Virus record (IMG/VR): IMGVR_UViG_3300043464_001630
Span: 1-64,000 of that record
DNA from: a virus
Strand: one strand, 5' to 3'
Length of the DNA: 64,000 nucleotides
Below the pieces are notes generated by a model. That model was not told the DNA's origin, searched no databases, and saw only the letters and a program-made list of their open reading frames with translations. Below are positions 5,596-55,608 of the stretch, piece by piece. Position 1 is the stretch's first letter. The number at the start of each line of letters is the position of its first letter. Made by a program: the position numbers and the translations under genes.

Positions 5596-6555
5596 CTACT
5601 TACATAAATTTCTTTCTTTTAGTATTTTCTTATAAATTAATTTTAGATCCGGTACGGTATCAAAATCTATCCATAAGCATTTGTAATTATTTTTATTACA
5701 ATATTCTTCTAATGCTTTCTTTTTATGTGGTATGTGTAAATTGTATTTATGATTAGACTTTGATGTCCATTTTTGTTTAATCTCTACTATATGTGTTTGG
5801 TTATTAATATAACATATAAAATCTGGGTTGTATGTTTTATTTTTAATTCCGTCATTGTAAATTAATATATTTTTAAATCTTTCTATTGATACTGCATTTA
5901 GTTTGTCTATTAAATAGATTAATCCTGCTTTCTCTAAATTAGAATCTACTTCTATTGAAGTATTTTTATATGTAAAATGTTCTCTAGGTGTGGAGAAATT
6001 TCCATTCTTTTCTAAATATTTTTGTCTTTGTATGGAAATACTTAAAAATTTACAAGCTTCGCTACAAGTTTTTCGCTTTTTTTCTTTTGTACTATAAAAT
6101 TGTTTAGAACATACGGAACATACGTATTCTTGATTTGTATATTTTGAATATGTTTTACCTATATTGTTTATCCTTAGATGCTTAGTTGATTCGTATTTCT
6201 TTAATAAAGATTCCGAAGTTTTCTTTTTTGTTTCTTCTGTTATTATTCTGTTGGAATTATTAAATTTAGCTGAACAAGAACTAGAACAAAAGTAATTGTA
6301 AGTTTTTCCTTCTTTTAATTTCATTCTTTTATCTGCTGACTTTTCCAAAAACTTATCATATCCGATAACAATATTACATTGTTTACAGTGTTCTGGAGAT
6401 TCTAGATATTTTAATGTATTCTCTTCCTTTTGTTTTTTCCCGCGTTCTTTTATAAGAATAATATCCAAACCACTTCTTTTTACATGATGTGCTTTGTGTC
6501 CCTGTAAAGCCATTTTTTTATCAAACTCTTTATTACATATTTCGCATTTATACAT
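5596..6555 (-). CDS. zinc-finger PD-(D/E)XK homing-endonuclease-like protein
   Basis: This 319-residue protein begins with a C2H2-like finger (YKCEICNKEF ... HKAHH). More Cys pairs follow (CKQCN, CSSSC, CSVCSKQF, CSEAC). The nuclease core is YNPDFICY then HIVEIKQKW near residue 240-260. It is convergent with the split tRNA-Asn, 18 bases away, mirroring the 2125 gene at the other split tRNA. It probably acts as a freestanding homing endonuclease; the target is unknown. Confidence 0.7.
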   Translation of the reverse strand: MYKCEICNKEFDKKMALQGHKAHHVKRSGLDIILIKERGKKQKEENTLKYLESPEHCKQCNIVIGYDKFLEKSADKRMKLKEGKTYNYFCSSSCSAKFNNSNRIITEETKKKTSESLLKKYESTKHLRINNIGKTYSKYTNQEYVCSVCSKQFYSTKEKKRKTCSEACKFLSISIQRQKYLEKNGNFSTPREHFTYKNTSIEVDSNLEKAGLIYLIDKLNAVSIERFKNILIYNDGIKNKTYNPDFICYINNQTHIVEIKQKWTSKSNHKYNLHIPHKKKALEEYCNKNNYKCLWIDFDTVPDLKLIYKKILKERNLCK

Positions 6556-6562
6556 ACATTAT

Positions 6563-6568
6563 TATTTA
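6563..6568 (-). promoter_or_regulatory. late promoter box (7-nt spacing)
   Basis: TAAATA on the minus strand, 7 nt before the ATG of the 5596-6555 gene; the spacing is longer than usual. Confidence 0.4.
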
Positions 6569-6607
6569 GCTTCAAAACTTATTTAAAGAGCCTTTTAATT
6601 TTTCTCC

Positions 6608-6635
6608 TTGACTTCTTCACCACATATGATAAATT
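6608..6635 (+). promoter_or_regulatory. promoter of the tRNA-Tyr-like RNA
   Basis: TTGACT (6608-6613), 16 nt, then TAAATT (6630-6635), ending 17 bases before the tRNA-like element. Confidence 0.5.
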
Positions 6636-6652
6636 ATTGTAGTTAATTAAAT

Positions 6653-6740
6653 GCATCGGTATACTGCTAAATACGCAGCTTGGACTGTAAATCCAATATC
6701 CTCTAGGATTGGTTAGGAGAGTTACCTAAACGGTGCACCA
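6653..6740 (+). tRNA. tRNA-Tyr(GUA)-shaped RNA with non-canonical D and T loops
   Basis: The geometry is that of a bacterial tRNA-Tyr: acceptor GCATCGG/ACGGTGC (6 pairs plus G-A), D stem CTGC/GCAG, anticodon arm TTGGA-CTGTAAA-TCCAA, long variable arm ATCC-TCTA-GGAT, T stem TTAGG/CCTAA with a 7-nt loop, A73 and an encoded CCA. However, the D loop lacks GG, the linker before the D stem is 4 nt, and the T loop is AGAGTTA rather than TTCRANT. It may be a diverged tRNA or a mimic. Confidence 0.6.
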
Positions 6741-6781
6741 TTAACTTCTTTATATTCAACAACTTACATACATTCGCCATA

Positions 6782-6994
6782 ATGTACCCAATCCACAGAA
6801 TCGACGAAGCACATCTCTACCGTGTTTTTAAAAATAACGGAATGCGTGTATTAGATTTTCTGGTATATTTCAGTCATCCAATCGTCCGCCGAAATTTCGG
6901 TCTCGAAAATGTTGACAGAGAAGACGGTCTTATTATTTTCGAAATAAACGATCAGAAGAAGTTCTTTTTAAAGTGTATAAAGTATGGATTCTAG
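6782..6994 (+). CDS. small protein, KYG C-terminal family
   Basis: A 70-residue protein whose end, INDQKKFFLKCIKYGF, matches a module shared by about 19 small proteins in this window. The N-terminal half (MYPIHRIDEAHLY) is specific to this copy. It is isolated from the other family members and followed by a terminator. Function unknown. Confidence 0.65.
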   Translation: MYPIHRIDEAHLYRVFKNNGMRVLDFLVYFSHPIVRRNFGLENVDREDGLIIFEINDQKKFFLKCIKYGF

Positions 6995-7077
6995 AAACTT
7001 TCAGTAACCACAACCCCACTGGTATATAGGTCTTGTTATGATTGGAATGTAATAACATAGAAATCCTGCTGAAAACT

Positions 7078-7109
7078 AGCCACACATATTAATTTATGTG
7101 TGGCTTTTC
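7078..7109 (+). terminator. rho-independent terminator
   Basis: GCCACACATA and TATGTGTGGC form a perfect stem around a short A/T loop, followed by TTTTCTGTT. It separates the 6782 gene from the DUF1501 gene. Confidence 0.8.
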
Positions 7110-7123: not shown

Positions 7124-8395
7124 ATGAATCGTAGAGATTTCATTTACACTGGGCTTGTAGGTGGATTAGGATTATCAATGGGTGACATCCTAAAATTACA
7201 AGCAGAATCCTCCTTGACTCCTAAAGCTCAGTCTGTTATTCATATCTTTTTACCGGGGGGTGCGGCATCACATGAAACGTTTGATCCACATCCACTTGCT
7301 CCTTCTGAGTATAGAGGCCCATTAAAAGCTATTCCTACTTCAGTAGTAGGACTACAATTCTCTGAATACTTACAGAAAACGGCAAAAATTGCAGATAAGC
7401 TCACAGTAGTACATTCCATGACACACGGAGAAGCCGCACACGAACGTGGGGTTACTTCTATGTTCACTGGCTATCGTCCATCTCCAGCATTAGAATATCC
7501 ATCATTTGGTTCTGTAATATCTAATCAATTAGGAGATAGAAATAATCTACCAGCATATGTTTGTATTCCACAGAAGATTGGTAACAATGGTAACGATCCA
7601 GCAGATAGTGGGTACTTATCGAAAGCATACGGCCCTTTTAGTTTAGGTTCTGATCCCGCCAACCTTGGATTTAAGGTTCGTGATTTAAATGTAGAAGTAG
7701 GATCAGAACGATTCGAAAGACGTAAATCTATTTTAGACACAGTAGATAGTCATTTTCGTTATTTAGAATCTAGTGATAACTTAGCAGCAATGGATACTTT
7801 CTATCAAAAGGCATTTGATTTAATATCTTCGCCAAAAGCTAAAGAAGCGTTTGCCTTGGATAAAGAACCCCAAGTGATGCGTGAAGCATACGGAATGAAC
7901 CAAGCAGGTCAGAGATTGTTAATGGCTCGTAGATTAGTAGAAGCAGGTGTAAGATTTGTTTCCGTAACTTATGGTGGATGGGATATGCATTCGGGGATTG
8001 CCAACGGAATAGGTAAACAACTACCCTCATTTGATCAGGCTTATGCAACACTCATTAATGATTTAGATCAGAGAGGAATGTTAGATTCAACACTAGTTAT
8101 GATCTCTTCTGAATTTGGTAGAACTCCGAAGATTAACAAAGATGCAGGGCGTGATCATTGGCCTAGAGTATTCTCTGTAGTGTTTGCTGGTGGTGGTTTT
8201 AAACGTGGTTATGTTTACGGTTCTTCTGATGCCACAGGAAGTGATGTAGAAAGTAATCCATTAACAGTAGAAAACCTAGCGGCTACAATGTATAATCAAT
8301 TAGGTATTGATCCAGAAACAAAACTCATGGCGGCAGGTGGAAGACCATCAGCTATTGTAAAAGATGGTACTGTAGTTAAAGATTTGTTAGTATAA
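7124..8395 (+). CDS. DUF1501 protein with twin-arginine-type signal
   Basis: The 423-residue protein opens MNRRDFIYTGLVGGLGLSM, a twin-arginine-like export signal. It continues with DUF1501 hallmarks: FLPGGAASHETFDPHP, THGEAAHERG, VSVTYGGWDMHS, SEFGRTP and GRDHWP. DUF1501 proteins belong to the sulfatase/alkaline phosphatase superfamily and are very common in Planctomycetota; their substrate is mostly unknown. A second copy lies at 54244. The late box suggests expression with virion genes. A planctomycete origin is inference. Confidence 0.88.
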   Translation: MNRRDFIYTGLVGGLGLSMGDILKLQAESSLTPKAQSVIHIFLPGGAASHETFDPHPLAPSEYRGPLKAIPTSVVGLQFSEYLQKTAKIADKLTVVHSMTHGEAAHERGVTSMFTGYRPSPALEYPSFGSVISNQLGDRNNLPAYVCIPQKIGNNGNDPADSGYLSKAYGPFSLGSDPANLGFKVRDLNVEVGSERFERRKSILDTVDSHFRYLESSDNLAAMDTFYQKAFDLISSPKAKEAFALDKEPQVMREAYGMNQAGQRLLMARRLVEAGVRFVSVTYGGWDMHSGIANGIGKQLPSFDQAYATLINDLDQRGMLDSTLVMISSEFGRTPKINKDAGRDHWPRVFSVVFAGGGFKRGYVYGSSDATGSDVESNPLTVENLAATMYNQLGIDPETKLMAAGGRPSAIVKDGTVVKDLLV

Positions 8396-10173: not shown

Positions 10174-10776
10174 GTGAGACAAAATTATATTAAGATTTCT
10201 AAGCTAGCTAAAGATCTAGGAGTAACTAAACAAACTCTTTGGAACTGGAAATATGCTGGTGAAGTTGATTTTGTTAAAATAGGTGGGTTAAATTGTGTAA
10301 CTAAAGAAACATACAATAATCTATTAGGAATAGAAAACAAGAAAAAAGAATCTGTTGTGATTTATTGTAGGGTTTCTTCGACGGAAAATAAATCTAATAT
10401 AGAAACACAAAAACAAAGATTGTTAAATTATTGCAATGCAAAAGGTTACAAAGTATCTGATGTGATACAAGAGTTTGGTTCTGGTATCAACGATAAGAGA
10501 CCAAAACTCGAAAAATTATTAAAACAGCAAAATTTTACAAAACTAGTAGTAGAACATAAAGATCGTCTAACAAGAGTAGGATTTAATTATATCAATACAC
10601 TGCTAAACTTCAATCATATTGAGATTGAAGTAGTTAATTCTGTTGATGATGATAGAACTGATTTAATACAAGATTTCATATCAATTATTACATCTTATTG
10701 TGCTAGAATTTACGGCAACAGAAGATCAAAAAGAAAAACTGAACAATTAATAAAGGAGCTTGAATCCAATGAGTAG
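10174..10776 (+). CDS. tnpA: IS607-family serine recombinase TnpA
   Basis: A 200-residue transposase with a GTG start. Residues 5-50 form the MerR-like DNA-binding helix-turn-helix (ISKLAKDLGVTKQTLWNW), and the recombinase domain starts with VVIYCRVSST, whose Ser is the expected nucleophile. VVEHKDRLTRVGF is the conserved E-x-x-DRL-x-R segment. It moves the element through a circular intermediate with little target specificity. Its end overlaps tnpB. Confidence 0.95.
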   Translation: MRQNYIKISKLAKDLGVTKQTLWNWKYAGEVDFVKIGGLNCVTKETYNNLLGIENKKKESVVIYCRVSSTENKSNIETQKQRLLNYCNAKGYKVSDVIQEFGSGINDKRPKLEKLLKQQNFTKLVVEHKDRLTRVGFNYINTLLNFNHIEIEVVNSVDDDRTDLIQDFISIITSYCARIYGNRRSKRKTEQLIKELESNE

Positions 10777-12355
10777 ATGCACAAAGAGTTATTCTTTCTA
10801 CTCGAAAGATCTTAACATAGGCAAATTCAATCTCTTTTTGAAGAAAGCCGAAGCAGTCAGAGATTATAAGAATGCTTTATCTGTCGAAATTTCATCTAAT
10901 CTCTTGAAGTACACTGAAGTTTCTAAGTTTGATTTCCTTAAAATGTTTGGTACGAAAACTAATTATTTGAATCCTAGCTCATTAATGAGAGGAAACGAAA
11001 TACAAAAAGCTGTAGCGGATGTGTTTGAAGCTTATCAAAATAAAATAACACAAATTAAACAAAAAATGTCTTTCTTTGTTCAAAAAGGAAAAGAGGTAGA
11101 ATTTTACAAAAGAAACACAAAAAATAATAAAAAAGGTGATGTTAGAAGTTATGAAATAAAAACTAAAAATACTCCATTGACAAAAACAATCACATTTCTA
11201 TCTCGTTATGGTTCCGAAAACACACTAGATTATGTCAATAAAAGAGCGAATCAAAATGATGACAAACAAGATTTCTATAAGACACTAAAAATACATATTC
11301 AAAAGTTTGGCTTAGAAAGATTGTCGAAACTTGCTTACAGCAAAAGAACACAAGTTCTAAATAAGTATAATTATCCAATCACATTCACCTCTCTATCTTA
11401 TCGTTCTGCTCTTCAGACGAACGATCCTTTGATTCAAAATTCCAAGAACAAAACATTTTCAAATGGAACTATTTCAATACCAAGCTTTAATGGAAAACAT
11501 ATGTTTGTTCCGACTACATTCAATGTAAAACATCATGGTCATTTGAATCAATATAAATCAAAAGAGTATATAATTTGTATCGAACAAAAGCGAAAAAGAA
11601 TCAGACTGATTACTACAAAAGAAACAGAAGAAACTATTTCTCCAGAAGGAATAAATTATTTAGGTGTTGACACCAACGTCAAACATAATCTATTTGCTAC
11701 TTCAGATGGAATGAATATTGACATGGACAGAGATTTGTTTCATGGTTATATTGCTTTTCTAAAGAAATACCAAGACAAGAAAGAACATACTTCTGGAGAA
11801 GATCAACAATTTGAACTATGGCAAGAACGTGTTCAGTGTATGCTCAAAAAGAAAGCTAGAGAGTTAGTTGATGTGGCTATAGCTTCTGGTAAGAATCATA
11901 TCATCATGGAAGATCTTGGTAACTTTGGTAAATCTTACACTAAATCAGAAGAGTTCGAAGGATTCAAATATTCTAGATTAACACGATTACTCAATCTTTC
12001 TTCTCTAAACAAAATTGTTAAAGGCATTTGTAAGAAGCTTGGTGTTAGACTAACTCTCATTCCTTCTCATTATACATCTCAGTGGTGCTTTGACTGTGGA
12101 CACATAGACAAAGCTAACAGAACCACCCAAGAAATTTTCCAATGTGTTTGTTGCAATGTAACAGCAAATTCAGACTTTCATTCTTCACGAGCCATCCTTA
12201 GGATAGGTTCTTCAGACGTTCTGAAGAGCAATATGCTCGTGATGGATAAATCATTCGATTGGATTCCTAAGAAACTCTCAAAAGGTTTCATAAGAAAACA
12301 ATTGGAAGAAATAATTCCTAAAACAACTTTTCAGTTGAATTGTCAAACTTTATAG
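10769..12355 (+). CDS. tnpB: TnpB RNA-guided endonuclease of the IS607 element
   Basis: ATG at 10769 is preferred over an in-frame TTG at 10760 because AAAGGAG at 10752-10758 is placed for it. The protein (528 residues) has the RuvC-like nuclease motifs GVDTNVKHNLFA (Asp), IIMEDLGNFGKS (Glu) and NSDFHSSRAI (Asp), with a zinc ribbon CFDCGH ... CVCC between the last two. All catalytic residues are present. TnpB proteins are guided by an omega RNA from the element's 3' end and favour its retention. That RNA should overlap the tnpB end. Confidence 0.95.
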   Translation: MSRCTKSYSFYSKDLNIGKFNLFLKKAEAVRDYKNALSVEISSNLLKYTEVSKFDFLKMFGTKTNYLNPSSLMRGNEIQKAVADVFEAYQNKITQIKQKMSFFVQKGKEVEFYKRNTKNNKKGDVRSYEIKTKNTPLTKTITFLSRYGSENTLDYVNKRANQNDDKQDFYKTLKIHIQKFGLERLSKLAYSKRTQVLNKYNYPITFTSLSYRSALQTNDPLIQNSKNKTFSNGTISIPSFNGKHMFVPTTFNVKHHGHLNQYKSKEYIICIEQKRKRIRLITTKETEETISPEGINYLGVDTNVKHNLFATSDGMNIDMDRDLFHGYIAFLKKYQDKKEHTSGEDQQFELWQERVQCMLKKKARELVDVAIASGKNHIIMEDLGNFGKSYTKSEEFEGFKYSRLTRLLNLSSLNKIVKGICKKLGVRLTLIPSHYTSQWCFDCGHIDKANRTTQEIFQCVCCNVTANSDFHSSRAILRIGSSDVLKSNMLVMDKSFDWIPKKLSKGFIRKQLEEIIPKTTFQLNCQTL

Positions 12356-12646: not shown

Positions 12647-13357
12647 ATGATTAAATTCTCAAAAGAGATTATGGAATTGGCATTATCAATGATGCCGCGT
12701 TGTGATCTCGTTAAGGTTATGTGCTCAATGGGAATAGACAGTCTTGCTGTTTCTCATTTCTTCGAAAAGAAAATTAAAGACAAATACGGTTCTTGGGGCA
12801 TAATGCACTTCAATCATGAACAGAGACAACAAAATTATTTGATGGAAGAAAGTTATTGTAATTTTGGTTATAACTATGGTATTCCTAGATATTCTCCGGT
12901 TCGTTTAAAATCCGGAGGCTATTATGGCAGTTCTCTAGAACCAACCGAAGATAACTTCAGGGAAGCTAGACTTAATTATATTAAAAGAAGTCAGCATATT
13001 AATACAATCTTCATTACTGCTCATCATTTAGACGATGCCGCAGAAAGCTATATGCTGAATGTTTTGCGGGGTAAAGAAGGATTCTTACCCATTCCATTCA
13101 TTACAGAAGTAGGACGTAACTTAATTGTTCATCCTTTTCTTTTTACGAAGAAGAAAGATTTCAGGGAATATGCAGAAAAGAACAATCTCATGAAATATGT
13201 CGTAGAGGATGAGACTAATAAGGTAACTAAAGGAAGCAGAAGAAACTTTATTAGAAACGAGATTATGCCTCTTATTCAAAGAGAGAAGATGGGACTCGAC
13301 ACAATCGTTAAAAAGAAAATGAAAGAACGATTGATGTTGGAAATTATAAAATCTTGA
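12647..13357 (+). CDS. tilS: TilS-like tRNA(Ile)-lysidine synthase / PP-loop ATPase
   Basis: A 236-residue N-type ATP pyrophosphatase. The PP-loop is CSMGIDSLAV rather than SGGxDS, so two glycines are changed. TilS-like motifs follow: HFNHEQR, ITAHHLDDAAES, and RRNFIRNEIMPLI. TilS converts the CAU wobble C of tRNA-Ile2 to lysidine so that it reads AUA. The C-terminal tRNA-binding domains of long TilS proteins are absent, as in short forms. The split tRNA(CAU) at 1755 is an obvious candidate substrate. The altered P-loop leaves activity open. Confidence 0.8.
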   Translation: MIKFSKEIMELALSMMPRCDLVKVMCSMGIDSLAVSHFFEKKIKDKYGSWGIMHFNHEQRQQNYLMEESYCNFGYNYGIPRYSPVRLKSGGYYGSSLEPTEDNFREARLNYIKRSQHINTIFITAHHLDDAAESYMLNVLRGKEGFLPIPFITEVGRNLIVHPFLFTKKKDFREYAEKNNLMKYVVEDETNKVTKGSRRNFIRNEIMPLIQREKMGLDTIVKKKMKERLMLEIIKS

Positions 13358-54243: not shown

Positions 54244-55608
54244 ATGGCTGACTGTGGAAATCATAACAACGAATACAGAACCCGTAGAGATTTCCTGAAT
54301 AATTTCGGATGGGGTATAGGAGGATTATCTTTAGCATCTATCTTGGGTGTAGATCCCGTAACTGCTGAAGCAGTTTCTCCTCTTGCCGCTAAAGCTTCAC
54401 ACTTTCCAGTTAAAGCAAAAGCAGTTATTCAACTATTTGCTTCTGGTGCTCCGTCTCATGTAGATACTTTTGATTATAAACCAGAACTTCAAAAGCGTGA
54501 TGGACAAAAAGGAGATTATGGTAATCTTCTCGCTTCTCCGTTCAACTTTCCCCAGTTTGGAAAATCTGGTTTACATATATCTGAAGTTTGGTCGAAATTA
54601 GGCCAACATGCGGATAATATGGCAATCATAAATTCCATGCAAACAGACGTTCCTGATCATGGAATTGCTGCAAAAATGTTTAATACAGGTTCTACACAAC
54701 TTCCAAAACCAAGTCTGGGTAGTTGGTTAACCTATGGTTTAGGTTCCTTGAACCAAAACATGCCAGCTTTTATATCTTTAAACGGTGCGCCAGAATGGAG
54801 ACAGTGTGCATTCTTGCCGGGGATGTTTCAAGGCTGTAATGTGCAATACAGAACTGGTATGAGAGCAGAAGAGATTCTTTCTAATATCCGAAGTGAATTC
54901 TCTTCTTTAGATCGCCAAAGACGCCAAATTGACTTTTCTAAGTTTTTGAATTATGATCACATGAGTAAGTTGCAAAAAGATACGCAACTAGAAGCCAGAA
55001 TTGAATCTTTCGAAACCGCATTTAAAATGCAAACCGAAGCAACAGATGCTTTTGATGTCTCTAAAGAACCAGAGAACATTAAAGATCTATATGGTCGTAA
55101 CGAAGAAGGTAATAAAATGATAGTGGCTCGTCGTTTGGTTGAGCGTGGAGTACGTTTTGTACAGGTTAATGTGGGTGGCTATGATCATCATAGTGATATC
55201 AAAACCGCCATGACGAATACCACAATGCGTTACGACACAGCTTTTAGTGGATTACTAACTGATCTTAAACAACGAGGGTTGTTAGATTCTACACTAGTTA
55301 TTTGGGGTGGTGAATTTGGACGTACTGTGACCGCTGGAGGAGGTGCTGGTGCTCCGGGTCGTGATCATAATGGTAAAGCATTTTCAGTATGGATGGCAGG
55401 AGGAAACATTAAAGGCGGACAGCGTTACGGAGAAACCGACGAAACCGGCGGAAGATCGGTTAAAGATATTGTACATATTCATGATTTACATGCGACGATT
55501 CTTCATTTAATGGGATTTGATCACACGAAATTAACTTACAATTACAACGGAAGAGAGTTCCGTCTCACTGATAACTTCGGAAACGTTATAAAAGAACTTA
55601 TTAGTTAA
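54244..55608 (+). CDS. DUF1501 protein with twin-arginine-type signal, second copy
   Basis: 454 residues. RTRRDFLNNFGWGIGGLSLA is a twin-arginine-like signal; DUF1501 motifs are QLFASGAPSHVDTFDYKP, DVPDHGIAAKMF, VQVNVGGYDHHSDI, IWGGEFGRT, GRDHNGKAFSVWMAGG and IHDLHATILHLMG. It differs clearly from the 7124 copy, so the two were acquired separately or duplicated long ago. It sits among virion genes. Family role is mostly unknown. Confidence 0.9.
   Translation: MADCGNHNNEYRTRRDFLNNFGWGIGGLSLASILGVDPVTAEAVSPLAAKASHFPVKAKAVIQLFASGAPSHVDTFDYKPELQKRDGQKGDYGNLLASPFNFPQFGKSGLHISEVWSKLGQHADNMAIINSMQTDVPDHGIAAKMFNTGSTQLPKPSLGSWLTYGLGSLNQNMPAFISLNGAPEWRQCAFLPGMFQGCNVQYRTGMRAEEILSNIRSEFSSLDRQRRQIDFSKFLNYDHMSKLQKDTQLEARIESFETAFKMQTEATDAFDVSKEPENIKDLYGRNEEGNKMIVARRLVERGVRFVQVNVGGYDHHSDIKTAMTNTTMRYDTAFSGLLTDLKQRGLLDSTLVIWGGEFGRTVTAGGGAGAPGRDHNGKAFSVWMAGGNIKGGQRYGETDETGGRSVKDIVHIHDLHATILHLMGFDHTKLTYNYNGREFRLTDNFGNVIKELIS

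Follow-up and report, generated by a model that had tools for sequence, protein, structure and literature searches.

A phage tRNA-Tyr gene with putatively rewired elbow contacts, and its relatives among phage tRNAs

The tRNA gene and its surroundings

The window, namely the whole stretch of 64,000 nucleotides analysed here (positions 1 to 64,000 of the IMG/VR virus record IMGVR_UViG_3300043464_001630), carries at positions 6653-6740 of the plus strand a gene of 88 nt including CCA, the coordinates and original observation of which were confirmed (table 1). From the 5′ end it reads GCATCGG, TATA, CTGC-TAAATAC-GCAG, C and TTGGA-CTGTAAA-TCCAA, followed in the 3′ half by TATCCTCTAGGATTGG, which is the variable arm of 16 nt, TTAGG-AGAGTTA-CCTAA, ACGGTGC, A and CCA. 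As originally predicted, the layout is that of a class II tRNA-Tyr with the GUA anticodon, a long variable arm, A73 and CCA encoded in the gene. The acceptor stem is of 7 bp, with a 7/5 layout of the acceptor and T stems, and the anticodon stem is of 5 bp with a 7-nt loop containing U33 and A37, the sole non-standard stem pair of the gene being G7.A66. The linker between the acceptor and D stems, which is of 4 nt (UAUA) rather than 2, had been overlooked; the acceptor and anticodon stems are 20 nt apart. The D-loop (TAAATAC) lacks G18G19, and the T-loop (AGAGTTA), in which A54, G55, A56 and U58 correspond to positions 6718, 6719, 6720 and 6722, lacks T54T55C56. The predicted fold is a cloverleaf; its energy lacks significance, since 27 of 200 shuffles do as well (z = -1.1), so that the case for a tRNA rests on homologues.

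Rejection by standard finders had also been anticipated, and both ARAGORN and Rfam were indeed blank at the site. ARAGORN detected no tRNA anywhere in the window, Rfam detected none in the window nor, at E ≤ 10, in 6500-6900, and RF00005 gave zero matches across the whole 236,391-base viral record. In a scan of the record nothing else of the same kind as the window gene turned up, and RF00005 and the family search revealed no further tRNA in the 236 kb.

Table 1. Position, strand and supporting evidence of features in the window.
Feature	Position	Strand	Basis
Candidate promoter TTGACT-16-TAAATT, 18 nt before the tRNA	6608..6635	+	consensus match only
tRNA-Tyr(GUA) gene, putatively rewired elbow, CCA encoded	6653..6740	+	layout, fold, covariation, model score
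Acceptor 5′ strand GCATCGG (partner 6730-6736; 7-66 is G.A)	6653..6659	+	sequence, covariation
Linker UAUA, 4 nt (2 nt in ordinary tRNAs)	6660..6663	+	UA invariant in 32/32 aligned members
D arm CTGC, loop TAAATAC, GCAG (A18 = 6671, U19 = 6672)	6664..6678	+	alignment, covariation
Anticodon arm, loop CTGTAAA (GUA = 6687-6689)	6680..6696	+	sequence, covariation
Long variable arm, 4-bp stem ATCC/GGAT	6697..6712	+	sequence, fold
T arm TTAGG, loop AGAGTTA, CCTAA	6713..6729	+	alignment, covariation
Acceptor 3′ strand, A73 and encoded CCA	6730..6740	+	sequence
Second structured RNA, conserved, downstream; possibly transcribed with the tRNA	6998..7076	+	same element near tRNA genes at six loci
Intrinsic-terminator-like hairpin, 11 bp, ending the tRNA/RNA segment	7078..7105	+	sequence
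MNDxxLIWExY-type motif proteins	3059, 3960, 8404, 14270, 34448, 38291, 38735, 39510, 40668, 50541(-), 51561(-)

The second structured RNA is of approximately 75 nt (AACCACAA-CCCACTGGTA-TAGG-...-ATTGGAA-GTA-...-CCTGCT), precedes the terminator-like hairpin in the window, and shows, by eye, covariation in its closing and internal stems. Counterparts are found near tRNA genes at loci L005, L006, L007, L083, L088 and L095, Rfam being blank for the element in the window and in L005, where the copy seems to begin a longer RNA, of approximately 300 nt. At 7124-8395 there is a DUF1501 family protein (382.8 bits), close relatives of which are common in viral contigs, and at 54244-55608 a second protein that is DUF1501-like by eye. 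The region 10174-12355 encodes a transposase of the IS607 family and, after it, a TnpB-like protein, for which the top NCBIfam match is Cas12f2, below cut-off. The product of 12647-13357 is a PP-loop protein closest to the tRNA lysidine synthetase TilS (TIGR02432, 86.1 bits, just below cut-off); no tRNA-Ile was detectable in this phage. Many unrelated proteins of the window share an N-terminal MNDxxLIWExY-type motif, which we take to recall the capsid-targeting prepeptides of injected phage proteins.

Homologues and elbow pairs of the tRNA-Tyr family

A BLAST search among phages with the window region as query returned only short chance matches, and relatives were reached through the neighbouring DUF1501 gene, which led to related viral contigs. 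The homologue at locus L006 is flanked by tRNA-Asn and tRNA-Cys, the corresponding cluster at L005 contains an ordinary tRNA-Tyr instead, and L002 has a homologue that is less altered. A pattern scan leaving positions 18 and 19 free gave 15 stretches, mostly tRNA-bearing, and scans keyed on the T-loop approximately 200 more, about half of the cloverleaf type and the remainder forming a second RNA class; a scan without the anticodon requirement returned chance matches for the most part. The search for homologues in related phages that had been suggested thus found them in many phages, mostly in tRNA clusters: the majority of members are located within arrays of ordinary tRNAs, and the CTGTAAA anticodon loop, A73 and, mostly, CCA are retained. 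The proposal of a tRNA mimic as an isolated case was rejected, homologues existing and the gene belonging to a broad family of phage tRNAs. Cultured phages also have members or close variants that lack annotation, namely Vibrio phage CHOED (KJ192399, 56549-56634, 86.3 bits), the Lactobacillus phages LP65 (AY682195, 50917-51002, minus strand) and Satyr, the Caulobacter phages CcrColossus (JX100810, 68365-68450) and CcrPW, the Brevundimonas phages Kabachok and Domovoi, and the Rhizobium phages RHph_TM16 and RHph_X66.

In an alignment of 32 diverse members, 95.8% of the paired cells are indeed paired, compared with 65.3% with shuffled partners, and sliding the partners cuts pairing to 33-46%. Instead of the scattered stem-breaking changes that the original prediction regarded as fatal to it, changes on both sides were found in 20 of the 23 pairs tested. 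A covariance model built without the three members with AU at positions 18 and 19 (window, L096 and L387) scored the window gene at 81.5 bits (E = 8e-21), cellular tRNA-Tyr peaking at about 43 bits in 295 genomes of one bacterial phylum. That the gene is a decaying tRNA pseudogene could be supposed from the disappearance of conserved loop bases, the G7.A66 mismatch and the absence of a second detected tRNA in the record. However, no helix is disrupted and many changes with respect to homologues are paired ones, the 7-66 pair is non-standard in 19 of 32 relatives, and the loop bases that disappeared have matching substitutes. Decay was rejected because both stems and elbow covary, in agreement with the initial argument against simple decay, and is very improbable. 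A copied host tRNA type was unsupported, no such cellular gene being found in 295 and 392 genomes of one bacterial phylum. A single match in a MAG (L098) lies on a 31-kb contig, the large hypothetical ORFs of which look phage-like by eye.

By taking into account bases 18/19 with 55/56, three elbow classes can be distinguished: GG/UC (L002, L006, L085, L089, L091 and others), AG/GC, which is the majority, and AU/GA, which is limited to the window, L096 and L387. With respect to the canonical contacts, the window gene has U-A in place of G-C at 19-56, A.G in place of G.U at 18-55, and A.U in place of U.A at 54-58. In the 32-sequence alignment the 19-56 pair is G-C in 29 members, U-A in 3 and broken in none; a broken pair, U19 opposite C56, is found in L249, which lies outside this alignment. 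Among 48 nearly non-redundant sequences the 18-55 pair is A.G in 41 and G.U in 6, the remaining one being a chance parse. The observed coupling was matched by none of 10,000 label shuffles for 18-55 and by 1 of 10,000 for 19-56. The 54-58 pair is A.U in most members and U.A in L098. The Caulobacter relatives provide another paired change (GG with TTC in BL47, AG with TGC in CcrColossus). A scan for T-loops with A54 and a base other than C at 56 gave L096 and L387 as the only true matches, so that the AU/GA type is rare, and since the window gene and L096 have an identical D arm, no more than one or two independent origins of it are sure.

From these comparisons, the canonical elbow pairs would be replaced rather than lost. 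The initial statement that the elbow bases are missing is correct as to the canonical G18G19 and T54T55C56, but not as to the elbow itself, for which compensatory changes appear to substitute. A18.G55 is a non-standard pair of putative geometry. The exchange of the elbow contacts for other, matching ones also explains why the window gene is overlooked by standard finders.

Matched changes in other phage tRNAs and a pseudoknotted class

A search with the T arm only (TAGGAGCRTTACCTA) led to 82 parsed tRNAs, 52 of which are tRNA-Tyr and 30 of other isotypes; on inspection, A precedes G in the D-loops of all 30. Ordinary tRNA genes are present in 107 of 113 loci of this search, and ARAGORN made calls at 12 of 114 sites. 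The coupling was also determined on 2,340 unique phage tRNAs that ARAGORN had called in the collected loci and that cover many isotypes, by scoring the dinucleotide as present anywhere in the D-loop, with no alignment placement. T-loops of the UC class are accompanied by GG in 99% of cases, GC by AG in 96%, UU by GA in 100% and UA by GU in 92%, with background values within the UC class of 19% for AG, 27% for GA and 65% for GU, and GG at 0-6% outside the UC and CC classes (classes with more than 3 members); the loci having been selected for odd tRNAs, it is the coupling that counts, and these frequencies are not population estimates. On this comparative basis, similar matched elbow swaps are carried by hundreds of phage tRNAs. 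Other types in these loci, besides A18.G55, are A19-U56 (31) and U19-A56 (13). In phage f2b1 (L501), a T-loop match at 501-528 corresponds to an unannotated tRNA-Phe-like gene with T-loop AGCGTTA and, by eye, the anticodon GAA.

The RNAs of the second class are of approximately 88 nt and lack a D arm. They have an 8-bp acceptor carrying CCA, an anticodon arm with GUA, and a T stem of 4 bp with the loop AGCGTTA. Between the 5′ strand and the variable region there is a helix of 6 bp, which crosses another helix in that region, so that a pseudoknot is generated. The two helices were tested by direct parsing, the MAFFT alignment having misplaced the variable region: in 20 nearly non-redundant sequences helix 1 is 99% paired compared with 77% with shuffled partners, and helix 2 89% compared with 65%. 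L306 has GG with TTC and the other members AG with AGC, which is the same coupling in a different topology. The class is conserved, its crossing helices covary, and it looks like a new tRNA topology. Its loci are L216 (9936, plus strand), L219, L221, L306, L326 and approximately 100 more on viral contigs.

Proposed function and comparison with known systems

The best explanation is that the window gene encodes a functional phage elongator tRNA-Tyr charged by the host TyrRS, which is considered highly probable. Sequence comparison shows the cloverleaf, the conserved identity features of tRNA-Tyr and the coupling of the elbow changes, and transcription, charging and use by the ribosome are what we infer for it. 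Transcription from the phage, for which the candidate promoter at 6608-6635 and the terminator-like hairpin at 7078-7105 speak, would be followed by processing, with CCA already in the gene. The host tyrosyl-tRNA synthetase would recognise the long variable arm, GUA, A73 and G1-C72 for charging, and the tRNA would decode UAU and UAC. The D- and T-loops would still dock, with A18.G55 for G18.U55, U19-A56 for G19-C56 and A54.U58 for U54.A58, and the lengthened linker between the acceptor and D stems would accompany the replaced contacts. A change of identity, to another amino acid or a special function, could be suggested by the altered core, the 4-nt linker and the precedent of tRNA-Pyl for noncanonical D- and T-loops (PMC7609411), but is hardly credible, since the gene retains GUA, A73 and G1-C72 as well as a variable arm of class II, and no candidate synthetase stood out among the ORFs of the window.

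According to the extracts of PMC11555353 and PMC13096335 considered here, retron-Eco7 and Septu cut tRNA-Tyr in the variable loop, and phage tRNA-Tyr (T5, SP15, T6) restores phage growth against the tRNA-Tyr-cutting PtuAB, the resistance of T5 tRNA-Tyr being attributed to its variable loop. The same extracts, in which tRNA-Tyr is the target of retron-Eco7 and Septu and phage tRNA-Tyr can serve as a supplement or a decoy, would also suit a decoy or mimic acting outside translation by binding and occupying a host factor, such as TyrRS or a defence nuclease that cuts tRNA. The window gene being the sole tRNA found in the 236-kb record, which makes codon-usage supply a weak motive, points in the same direction. 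Nevertheless, a decoy is improbable: the anticodon loop, A73 and mostly CCA are preserved, most members belong to ordinary tRNA arrays, and identical elbow swaps occur in many isotypes, which favours tRNAs working as tRNAs.

For a functional tRNA-Tyr, it is conceivable, with rather low confidence, that the purpose is a tRNA-Tyr pool poorly handled by host enzymes that read U54U55C56 or the normal core of tRNA-Tyr, including the retron-Eco7/Septu PtuAB. By analogy, escape of the window gene from tRNA-Tyr-cutting defences (retron-Eco7, Septu) is plausible, and a lone tRNA-Tyr in a phage with no other detectable tRNAs, together with the wide radiation of altered tRNA-Tyr, fits defence pressure. 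The main alternative is simple tRNA supply with a relaxed elbow constraint, which may suffice given the elbow swaps in other isotypes. A more general proposal, somewhat more doubtful still, is that selection makes phages keep alternative elbow codes in their tRNAs (GG/UC, AG/GC, GA/UU, GU/UA and AU/GA) that would be functional on the ribosome and evade host enzymes reading the universal elbow or the normal core of tRNA-Tyr, above all tRNA-Tyr-cutting defences; if so, the pseudoknotted tRNA-Tyr class would be an extreme form of the same escape.

The 19-56 and 18-55 contacts are treated as near-invariant in cellular tRNAs, where they are read by the ribosome, RNase P and many enzymes, and are called conserved in reviews dealing with the elbow and with noncanonical tRNAs (PMC4810234, PMC7609411), term searches of which showed phages to be unmentioned. 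No earlier report of phage elbow swaps was found in the literature searched, most subscription journals being outside its scope. The matched phage swaps provide comparative evidence for the elbow tertiary pairs, and phage tRNAs are a natural source of elbow variants that presumably work. It is also evident that annotations miss many phage tRNA genes, above all tRNA-Tyr, cultured phages included.

Bacterial class II tRNA-Tyr(GUA) shares with the window gene the cloverleaf, the 7-bp acceptor, GUA, U33, A37, A73, CCA and the long variable arm, whereas the absence of G18G19 and T54T55C56, the 4-nt linker, the compensated elbow and the negative RF00005 and ARAGORN results set the latter apart. The bromovirus tRNA-like structure is also viral and of the tyrosine type, being charged with tyrosine, but is a 3′-end genome element with a pseudoknotted acceptor, whereas the cloverleaf of the window gene is free-standing and has a true anticodon arm. 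The 8- or 9-bp acceptor of tRNA-Sec and allo-tRNA (8/5, 9/4, 8/4, 9/3) differs from the 7/5 layout found here. The anticodon of tRNA-Pyl is CUA, and neither this, nor an elongated anticodon stem, nor a 3-nt variable arm is present in the window gene. tRNA-Pyl also lacks G18G19 and T-Psi-C, but with a short D-loop, a small variable arm and an elongated anticodon stem (PMC7609411), whereas the window gene is of class II, with GUA and coupled swaps. The anti-defence tRNA-Tyr of T5, SP15 and T6 is likewise a phage tRNA-Tyr, a parallel taken solely from the literature, and differs from the window gene in that no elbow change is found in the extracts of PMC11555353 and PMC13096335. Finally, the canonical D- and T-loop bases are likewise not kept in metazoan mitochondrial tRNAs without elbow motifs, but these lose the contact between the D- and T-loops, whereas the family of the window gene appears to replace it by covarying ones (PMC7609411, PMC4810234).
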